Shown one piece after another: positions 15,113 through 20,583 of a DNA stretch of 64,000 nucleotides; the first letter of the stretch is position 1, and each line of letters begins with the position of its first letter. The notes beneath the pieces are model-generated. The model searched no databases, was not told the DNA's origin, and worked only from the letters and a program-made list of their open reading frames with translations. The translations under genes were made by a program, and so were the position numbers. The stretch lies in assembly GCF_007753265.1 (NCBI RefSeq), contig NZ_CP036349.1:186001-250000 (forward strand), in the 5' to 3' direction. This DNA is from Botrimarina mediterranea. GTDB lineage: Bacteria; Planctomycetota; Planctomycetia; Pirellulales; Lacipirellulaceae.

Positions 15113-16234
15113 CTACAGCCCGTCTCGCAAGTCGGTAGAGCTGATATCGCTGCGAAACTCGCTTTCGGTGACGCCGTCGCAAAGCTGTCGCAATTTCGGC
15201 GGCATTGAGAGGTCTTCGAGCCCCTCAAACCGGTCGTCCTTTCTCCTGCCGAAGACCAGGAAGCGGCAGCCCTGCGCGGCAAGTCGCTCGAAGGCGGCGT
15301 CGCGAGCCGTGTTGTTGGAGTAGTAGCGATCCTGGCCGATGCGGTGGATCGTGTCGGCGCCGACGGCGAATACGGCGCCGGGGGCAAGGCCGGCCTTTTC
15401 GATGAACGTGGGCGTGTTGGTGAGCCAAGCGGGCCGCTCTCCAATCGCCGCCAACCGCCGGCTGATCTCGACGAAATCGAGCGGCGGTTTATCGACGTTG
15501 GCGATCGACAGTTCTAGGACCACCGGCCTGCCGGTGCGTTCGGCGGCGATGCGGGCGATCTCGGCGTGCCCGGCGTGCGGTGGGTTGAACGAACCGGGGA
15601 ACAGACAGAGGCCCGCGGCGCCAACGGCTGGCGAGCCGTGCAGCGTGACGGCCGCCCATTCGTTGAGCAGCAGCCCGGTCCACTCGGCTGGCGCCAGGAC
15701 ATTCTCGATGGTCGCCTCGATGCCGCCGGGCGTCTTCGTCAGGTCGAGCGTATGAACGCCGGCCGTCTGAGCAAGCAACGCGACCGCTGCGTGGGCGGTC
15801 GCCTCTTCCTCCTCGATGCGGGTCCGCCGGCCCTTCTCGAAGTGAAGCGTCAGGACGCGGGTCTCCGTCGCCGTTTGCACGGCGACATGCGCGCGGTGCT
15901 CGCCGCGCTTGGGGCGCGTCGAGGCGAGGCTCGCCGTGCAGCCGAGGCCGAAGAGTTCACGCGGGTTGGCGTCGGTCGCCAACAGGCGCGCCCGCTCGAA
16001 TGCCCGCATCGCCATTTGGCGAGCCGTCTGTTCGTCGCACGCACGGGCGGGGGCGGCCCCGAGCCAGTCGGCAAGCGATGCTTTACAGTAGGGGACGGTC
16101 GCTTCGAGAACCGTGGCCGAGGCGCCGGGGACGGTTAGGAGTTTCGGGATCGCGCCGCTCCCGCCGCCGGTAATGGTGAGCACGCCCCGCCAGGGAGTCG
16201 CGTGGAGTCGCTCGATGAGGCCCGGTTGCATCAT
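15113..16234 (-). CDS. CinA C-terminal-like domain fused to NadD-like nucleotidyltransferase
   Basis: A 373-residue two-domain protein; two adjacent ATGs at 16234 and 16231 precede MQPGLIERLHATPWRG, while the longer frame adds an implausible basic extension. Residues 1-150 align with the CinA C-terminal domain (PncC, nicotinamide mononucleotide deamidase): VPGASATVLEATVPY and the following helices fit. However, the catalytic ESCTGG block reads TGGGSG (residues 22-27) and the expected Lys five residues after Tyr49 is Leu54. Residues about 210-373 are a NadD/cytidylyltransferase domain with intact FPGSFNPPHAGH and the C-terminal ISSTDLR motif. NadD adenylates nicotinate mononucleotide. The fusion suggests a pyridine-nucleotide role, but the first domain is probably not a working deamidase of the known type. 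Confidence 0.8.
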   Translation of the reverse strand: MMQPGLIERLHATPWRGVLTITGGGSGAIPKLLTVPGASATVLEATVPYCKASLADWLGAAPARACDEQTARQMAMRAFERARLLATDANPRELFGLGCTASLASTRPKRGEHRAHVAVQTATETRVLTLHFEKGRRTRIEEEEATAHAAVALLAQTAGVHTLDLTKTPGGIEATIENVLAPAEWTGLLLNEWAAVTLHGSPAVGAAGLCLFPGSFNPPHAGHAEIARIAAERTGRPVVLELSIANVDKPPLDFVEISRRLAAIGERPAWLTNTPTFIEKAGLAPGAVFAVGADTIHRIGQDRYYSNNTARDAAFERLAAQGCRFLVFGRRKDDRFEGLEDLSMPPKLRQLCDGVTESEFRSDISSTDLRDGL

Positions 16235-16479
16235 GCCCCCGATTGTAGGTGGCAAAGTCGCTTCGTCGATCGGGAAGCCACTGTTGCCTGCCGACGACAG
16301 GTTGCGTTGAGGCCACACGGAACCGGCGCCTTTGTGAGGGTTGTCCGGAGTCGGCGGCCGTTTGGGGCTTGTCTCTCGCGCCGTGGACGCCGCGGGCGGC
16401 CATTGGCGCCGGGCTTGCAACCCACTCCTCGTACGACGGGTGTGGGGACCCGTCACTCTTCTTCTCGGGGGCTTGTCCC

Positions 16480-17732: not shown

Positions 17733-17872
17733 GTTAGCTGCGGTTGGCCTGCGGGCTCGCCGACCGCTGACGCTCTCACCTTGTCCTCGTGACTTTTCCT
17801 GGCGGGCGGCTCTCCCCCTGCGGTTAGCTGCCCCTCCGCATCTAGTGTCTTCAGCAAGAAAAGGTGTGTCTC

Positions 17873-18583
17873 ATGAAGCGATTCTTCTCGTTGGCCCTCG
17901 TTTTGGGCCTCGCTGCGGTTCAGTCGGCTTCCGCCGCGACCGTCTTCTATGACTTTGGCGACAGTAATCAGCAGACGCCGGTCAATTACAACAACGTCGT
18001 CGTTAATCCGCCCGGGCAGTTAAGCATTGCGGACTCGGTCGATTCGGATGGCTCGCTGACAGGAATCACCGCGAGCGCCTCGGGATTTTTTACCGGCTCG
18101 AATACGGGTGGGCCCCAGACGCCTACAGGTGACGCGGCCATATTCGCAGCGACCGCGACTCGCGACAACGCCTTTGGCCATGCCGGAGCGTTCGGGGCGA
18201 ATCCGCTGACCCCTCAGGGGACGGTAGTGTTTGGCGGACTGGATGGGTCGGGCGCAACGGCCTACGACATCACAATTTTTGCCGGCCGCAACTCGACGCC
18301 CAACCTGCGCGAGACGCAATACGACATCAGCGGTTTGGCGTCTACTTCTTTGTTGCTAGAGCCCGCCAATAATACGAGCAATGTGGTGACGGCTGCTGGC
18401 GTCATCCCGTCGCTTGCGGGCACGATCACGTTGATCGCCAAGCCTGGCCCCAATAACAACAGCCCTGAGCAGTTCTATTACCTCGGCGCTGTCCGTCTAG
18501 TTTCGGCCCCCGCGATCCCCGAGCCGGCGTCGCTCGCTATCGCCGGCCTTGCCAGCGCAGGTTTCCTTTTCCGTCGTCGTTGA
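17873..18583 (+). CDS. PEP-CTERM protein, paralogue A
   Basis: A 236-residue exported protein. The ATG at 17873 (MKRFFSLALVLGLAAV) is preceded by AAAAGG at 10-base spacing; an in-frame GTG nine bases upstream is also possible. After a signal peptide (residues 1-21) the mature part begins TVFYDFGDSNQQTP and continues as an all-beta domain with DNAFGHAGAF, AYDITIFAGRNS, ETQYDISG and EQFYYLGAVRL. It ends in a PEP-CTERM signal (IPEPASLAIAGLASAGFLFRRR region). The layout matches the third gene of this locus closely. The pattern resembles carbohydrate-binding beta-sandwiches found beside SGNH esterases, which is an inference. Confidence 0.8.
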   Translation: MKRFFSLALVLGLAAVQSASAATVFYDFGDSNQQTPVNYNNVVVNPPGQLSIADSVDSDGSLTGITASASGFFTGSNTGGPQTPTGDAAIFAATATRDNAFGHAGAFGANPLTPQGTVVFGGLDGSGATAYDITIFAGRNSTPNLRETQYDISGLASTSLLLEPANNTSNVVTAAGVIPSLAGTITLIAKPGPNNNSPEQFYYLGAVRLVSAPAIPEPASLAIAGLASAGFLFRRR

Positions 18584-19875: not shown

Positions 19876-20583
19876 ATGAAGTGGATTGGCTCGACGGCCC
19901 TCATCTTGGGCGTCTCCCTAACGCAGCTTGCTGCCGGCGCGAATGTGTTCGTTGATTTCGGCGAGAGCTCTCAACTGACAGCCGGCAACTTCAACAACAT
20001 TGTCGTCAACTCGCCGGCGACCCTGAGCATCGCGGACATGGTCGACGAGGGCGGCGCGAACACCGGCGTCGGGATCTCGATCAGCGGGTTCTTCCCCGGC
20101 TCGAACTCGACGGGGCAAACCGCCCCGGCCGGCGACGCCGCGGCCCTATTCCCCGTGACGGCGACGCGCGACAACGCGTTCGGACACACCGGCCCGTTCA
20201 GTGGCAATCCGGACGCTTCGCTAGGCACGGTATCGCTTACCGGCTTGAACCCAGCGCTGACTTACGACTTCACGTTCTTCGCGTCGCGGACCGGGGTCTC
20301 TGACAATCGCGAGACCGCCTATGACATCAGCGGCGCCAACTCGGGCGTCGGCTACCTCAATGCCTCCGCCAACGTGGACACGGTCGTCACGGTCGCGGGG
20401 ATCCAACCAACGGGCTCGGGCGCTGTGTCGATCGATGTTTCGGCCGGCCCCAACAACGACAACGGCAGCCGGTTCTACTACTTGGGCGCCATGATGATCA
20501 CCACCGCGATCCCCGAGCCGACGAGCGCCCTGTTGGCGATGACGGCGGTTGGCTTTGTGCTGGCGCGGCGACGTCGCGCGTAG
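19876..20583 (+). CDS. PEP-CTERM protein, paralogue B
   Basis: A 235-residue exported protein, a clear paralogue of the gene at 17873. It has a signal peptide (residues 1-21), NVFVDFGESSQLTAGNFNN, DNAFGHTGPFSG, YDFTFFASRTG, ETAYDISGAN and RFYYLGAMMI, and a PEP-CTERM end (IPEPTSALLAMTAVGF then RRRR). The conserved segments are collinear with paralogue A, indicating duplication around the SGNH gene. The start ATG is preceded by CGAAGG at 10-base spacing. No catalytic residue is evident; a carbohydrate-binding role beside the SGNH hydrolase is an inference. Confidence 0.8.
   Translation: MKWIGSTALILGVSLTQLAAGANVFVDFGESSQLTAGNFNNIVVNSPATLSIADMVDEGGANTGVGISISGFFPGSNSTGQTAPAGDAAALFPVTATRDNAFGHTGPFSGNPDASLGTVSLTGLNPALTYDFTFFASRTGVSDNRETAYDISGANSGVGYLNASANVDTVVTVAGIQPTGSGAVSIDVSAGPNNDNGSRFYYLGAMMITTAIPEPTSALLAMTAVGFVLARRRRA

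Follow-up and report, generated by a model that had tools for sequence, protein, structure and literature searches.

A single gene of Botrimarina mediterranea (P0001; positions 15113..16234, minus strand, of the 64,000-nucleotide stretch of contig NZ_CP036349.1 analyzed here, referred to as the window) encodes a protein in which a CinA-C/PncC-like domain is joined to a NadD/NMNAT-like adenylyltransferase, and which probably converts NMN back to NAD without the usual deamidase. Both domain families are known; of their arrangement, no published description was found in the searchable literature.

The open reading frame comprises 373 amino acids and a TAG stop codon, and its GC content by codon position (0.68/0.53/0.83) identifies it as coding sequence of this G+C-rich genome. 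A GTG at 16456 lies further 5′ in the same open frame, but homologs begin near residue 5, which makes the ATG at 16234 a reasonable start. Pfam searches matched residues 211 to 371 to CTP_transf_like (PF01467; 1.3e-8, above the cut-off) and residues 22 to 156 to CinA (PF02464; 20.5 bits, under the gathering cut-off of 23.5), and profile-profile alignment with HHalign related the N-terminal half to CinA-C (probability 97.6, E = 3e-12) and the C-terminal half to NadD (probability 97.8). An AlphaFold2 model generated from a 44-sequence input had a pLDDT of 94.9 and a pTM of 0.92, compared with a pLDDT of 86.6 for an earlier model from six sequences. The modeled N-terminal domain (residues 1 to 160; 15755..16234, minus strand) superposed on the CinA/PncC domain structure 2a9s with a Z score of 16.7 and an rmsd of 2.6 over 149 aligned residues, and the modeled C-terminal domain (residues 206 to 373; 15116..15619, minus strand) on the NadD structure 5vir with a Z score of 12.1 and an rmsd of 3.4 over 150 residues; NadD structure 4rpi also gave a Z score of 12.1. 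At the level of predicted structure, these matches confirmed the proposal, made in an earlier sequence-only reading, that one chain carries both folds. Joining of two genes by a sequencing error, which that reading had named as a way to overturn it, or by faulty annotation, was excluded, as the full-length chain is present in approximately 96 of 117 sampled Pirellulales genomes as well as in other phyla. A search of PDB sequences returned a weak match to CoaD and no other, and PHROGs contains no family for the protein.

In the CinA protein of Thermus, phosphate is bound by Tyr296, Arg377, and the backbone at Gly284 and Ser286, while Lys301 with Thr340 is proposed to be catalytic, the Lys being described as absolutely conserved in active deamidases (PMC4246079). 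S31, G46, S48, Y58, and K63 (Agrobacterium numbering) have been stressed for the deamidase family (PMC3855486); the literature does not give the Ser of ESCTGG as the catalytic nucleophile. The corresponding residues of the fusion were counted in 93 aligned homologs, 80 bacterial and 13 from phages, which were chosen as best matches, so that conservation is somewhat overstated. As noted from the sequence, position 54, equivalent to Lys301 and K63, is Leu (Tyr49 + 5), and Lys occurs there in 0 of the 93 homologs, including 0 of the 13 phage proteins (L56, M20, V2, and I2 among the bacterial ones). Also as noted, AESCTGG with its Ser31 is replaced by ITGGGSG (ITGGGSGAI at residues 21 to 29). The Ser of ESCTGG aligns to T22 (a column of T57, S17, and A6 in bacteria) or falls in an HHalign gap.

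By comparison, much of the phosphate site is kept. The equivalents of Tyr296/Tyr58 (Y49) and Ser286/Ser48 (S39) are unchanged in 93/93 homologs and that of Gly284/Gly46 (G37) in 92/93; at the Thr340 equivalent, T100, 77 of the 80 bacterial homologs have Thr and 3 have Ser. Conservation in the domain extends over GGG at 23 to 25, G37, S39, Y49, T100, and R139, of which G23, G25, S39, Y49, and R139 are, together with G96, invariant across bacteria and phages; K/R109, H113, and R114 are newly conserved positions in the bacterial homologs. The residue aligned with Arg377 is Glu143, and the ligand may be placed differently as a result. Judged from these alignments, the catalytic Lys is gone family-wide and strong constraint acts on the pocket. 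The sequence-only reading had offered a binding domain, a structural domain, or a new activity; the conserved pocket favors binding or a new activity and speaks against a purely structural role.

The C-terminal half retains, as initially proposed, the motifs of nucleotidyl transfer: GSFNPPHAGH, with HxGH at 220 to 223, and ISSTDLR, with SSTxxR at 365 to 370, the conserved residues being H220, H223, S365, S366, and R370. It shares with NadD (TIGR00482) the fold, GxFxPxHxGH, and SSTxxR, but has PTFxxKA, with an invariant Lys280, in place of SYTxDTL, and scores 21.9 bits against an equivalog cut-off of 112.45. The N-terminal half has in common with the PncC/CinA C-terminal NMN deamidases (PF02464; structures 2a9s and 4cta) the fold, the Tyr, Gly, and Ser of the phosphate site, and the Thr340 position, but lacks the catalytic Lys, the ESC of ESCTGG, and YxNxxK, and has Glu at the Arg377 position. 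As neither the catalytic Lys of PncC nor the equivalog score of NadD is present, we placed the fusion in neither family, though it resembles both.

The protein is not an oddity of one genome but one of a widespread family whose members occur in huge phages as well. The best 80 loci of a GTDB genome scan came from Planctomycetota, mostly Pirellulales, and Gammaproteobacteria (Pseudomonadales, Porticoccaceae, OM182, and SAR86), with one metagenome-assembled genome labelled Chloroflexi; the closest named relative among the matches listed was from Botrimarina colliarenosi, at 71% identity. Few genomes of Planctomycetota as a whole carry the fusion. Viral contigs provided 17 loci, two huge-phage records matched in INPHARED, and phage protein A0A6J5RR79 in BFVD matched the entire fusion model (E = 8.5e-27). 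The search for the same fusion in other phyla, which the sequence-only reading had called for, thus succeeded in Gammaproteobacteria and phage contigs, with the Lys lost in all aligned members. A search of plasmids found none. Plants may have proteins of the same CinA-C plus NadD architecture; papers on At3g27610 and At2g01220 assigned them no function.

The genome from which the window derives was searched in its entirety (5.87 Mb, one contig). It was suggested at the outset to look for separate nadD and pncC genes: a canonical NadD (L001) is encoded elsewhere, whereas PF02464 gave no match above its cut-off. The possibility that the fusion is the genome's own NadD was therefore rejected. CoaD (L002) is also encoded, a two-domain CinA (L161:223-1857) has a decayed C domain that reads EGMTGG, and no match to nicotinamide phosphoribosyltransferase (NAMPT) was found. 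The fusion gene is flanked by genes for ASCH, FkbM, glycosyltransferase, and GNAT proteins; no NAD genes lie near it in the window or beside its bacterial homologs, whose neighbors vary by lineage. Elsewhere in the window, two similar secreted proteins with PEP-CTERM-like sorting tails are encoded near each other (17864-18583 and 19876-20583, plus strand).

Within Pirellulales, the distribution of the fusion was compared with that of PncC in 117 genomes, with PncC judged intact by reading its motifs directly and two genomes with partial matches (G365 and G389) left out of the count. An intact single-domain PncC accompanied the full fusion in 1 of 96 genomes (G423) but was present in 15 of the 19 genomes without the full fusion, among them genomes that carry the C-terminal half only. 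Fisher's exact test gave 2.5e-14 (8.6e-12 for high-quality genomes), with the caveat that genomes of one order are non-independent samples; both states occur within at least four families (f2, f95, f101, and f103). Full fusion and intact PncC are therefore almost mutually exclusive in this order. The exclusion is not universal, as many Pseudomonadales genomes that carry the fusion also gave a strong match to PncC. In a neighboring family of the class, relatives with a decayed N-terminal half (L012-L015) are found with PncC elsewhere. Among the two-domain CinA proteins of Pirellulales that were read (L161 and L233-L246), the C-domain motifs have decayed (EWGTGG, EGMTGG), and judging by these motifs such proteins are unlikely to be NMN deamidases.

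In phages, the fusion is linked to NAMPT, which was found in 12 of 17 fusion-bearing records and no more than about 4 kb from the fusion in 8 of 15 non-duplicate contigs (L107, L108, L109, L111, L112, L113, L117, and L120); for one such neighbor, a Pfam check returned NAMPT_N and NAPRTase. In L111, NAMPT lies 57 bp from the fusion and an NrtR-like regulator is also located upstream. The background frequency of NadV is 33% in jumbo phages and 22% in medium ones; the NMNATs known from phages are NadM and NadR (PMC9503650). In two independent phage lineages (L117/L118 and L120/L121), the halves are adjacent overlapping genes, which indicates that the N-terminal half is retained even when unfused. 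The overlapping halves lie in different frames (L117:4001-5030 and L120:3947-5138), and either separate genes or a programmed frameshift would account for this. Two further arrangements were observed: a NUDIX-domain gene overlaps the 3′ end of the fusion gene in L109 (5010-6125), with NAMPT 1.6 kb beyond, and adenylosuccinate synthetase and a kinase-like gene lie immediately upstream of the fusion in L108 (1522-3947).

For SAR86, an abundant marine group, the fusion is the sole visible NMN/NaMN adenylyltransferase. PF01467 matches in 12/12 fusion-bearing genomes were accounted for by CoaD, the fusion, and proteins of TagD or RibF size, with no other NadD/NadM-like protein seen; none of eight genomes tested reached the NadD cut-off, and a NAPRTase match was absent from these. 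Pairwise searches over the full length of one single-cell genome (G315, 1.28 Mb), with queries from E. coli and other sources, detected none of NadA, NadC, NadD, NadE, NadR, and PncB, so that the NaMN/NaAD route looks closed there. By their sequences, the apparent NadB match looks to be a succinate dehydrogenase flavoprotein and the apparent NadE match a GMP synthase. The gene content of this one genome suggests that NMN rather than NaMN is the substrate of the fusion in SAR86, and SAR86 would possibly be an auxotroph for an NAD precursor (G315, loci L253-L320). A PnuC-like gene in SAR86 has genes for a TonB receptor and a kinase-like protein as neighbors; as this could be a thiamine system, it was left out of the evidence.

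We favor, at an about even level of confidence, a reading in which the fusion is an adenylyltransferase that uses NMN and carries a PncC domain repurposed to handle NMN without deamidating it. The substrate adenylylated by the C-terminal NadD-fold domain would be a pyridine mononucleotide, most likely NMN, which would give NAD+ directly. As a descendant of the PncC/CinA-C NMN deamidase, the N-terminal domain would have lost the Lys of deamidation but retained the site for the NMN phosphate; its most likely role is to bind NMN, or an analogue close to it, and so to feed or regulate the adenylyltransferase. This NMN-salvage reading draws on the near-exclusion of PncC, the linkage to phage NAMPT, and the lack of another NadD/NadM-like protein in SAR86; the choice of NMN over NaMN, the absence of deamidation, and the NMN-binding role of the N domain are points that we infer. 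The presence of PncC in the C-half-only genomes counts against the C domain alone using NMN efficiently. That pattern, together with the near-exclusion itself, is explained most simply if the N domain does the job of PncC, in which case it would still be an NMN deamidase with a rewired site and the C domain would adenylylate the resulting NaMN, giving a two-step path from NMN to NaAD, the link of two consecutive steps raised in the sequence-only reading. T100 with, for example, K109, H113, R114, or R139 could substitute for the lost Lys; T100 and, in bacteria, K/R109, H113, and R114 are kept, and it is in class relatives with PncC that the N half has decayed. We nevertheless consider a rewired deamidase a clearly lesser possibility. 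The Lys that is absolutely conserved in active deamidases (PMC4246079) is missing in every homolog, and its loss, the NAMPT linkage, and SAR86 together argue against deamidation: phages that make NMN would have no gain from deamidating it, and G315 has no detected NadE to amidate NaAD. Pseudomonadales, moreover, retain both proteins.

The change of SYTxDTL to PTFxxKA with its invariant Lys, the Glu at the Arg377 position, and the lack of NAD genes near the bacterial fusion genes and in the window would also fit a pocket and a C domain that serve some other nucleotide or phosphorylated cofactor precursor. Such a non-pyridine ligand appears unlikely given the recurrent NAMPT and NrtR linkage in phages, the exclusion with PncC in Pirellulales, and the fact that the nearest folds of both halves are NMN/NaMN enzymes. 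Less probable still is that the fusion is simply a second NadD whose N domain persists as an inert structural remnant; loss of the canonical deamidase residues and decay of the N half in some relatives are in keeping with this, but the residues invariant across bacterial and phage proteins and the retention of the N half in two phage lineages, as a separate gene next to that of the C half, are not. Under the favored NMN-salvage reading, the fusion may supply the NMN-recycling step that lineages without intact PncC are missing. More tentatively, and in our view doubtfully, it may represent a PncC domain with lysine-free NMN processing that replaced the canonical deamidase across an order of bacteria, and a third NMN-to-NAD module of huge phages beside NadM and NadR. 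Phages counter NAD-depleting defences by NAD salvage, to which the fusion contributes a candidate NMNAT of a third type.

Among known systems, NadM (NMNAT plus Nudix) and NadR likewise combine an NMNAT with an NAD-recycling domain and in phages are paired with NadV/NAMPT (PMC9503650), but the partner domain of the fusion is CinA-like rather than Nudix or kinase. The two-domain COG1058-PncC form of CinA likewise joins a PncC-type domain to another NAD-recycling activity; it differs in partner and order, as the CinA-C-like domain of the fusion is N-terminal to an adenylyltransferase instead of having a COG1058 partner, and in Pirellulales its C domain has decayed. A 795-amino-acid open frame on the minus strand of another genome (G020, L016:184-2571) combines a nucleotidyltransferase similar to the C half of the fusion (NVDK, ISSTDAR) with following NUDIX and IF-2B-like domains, and by its motifs is another fusion of this type of adenylyltransferase.
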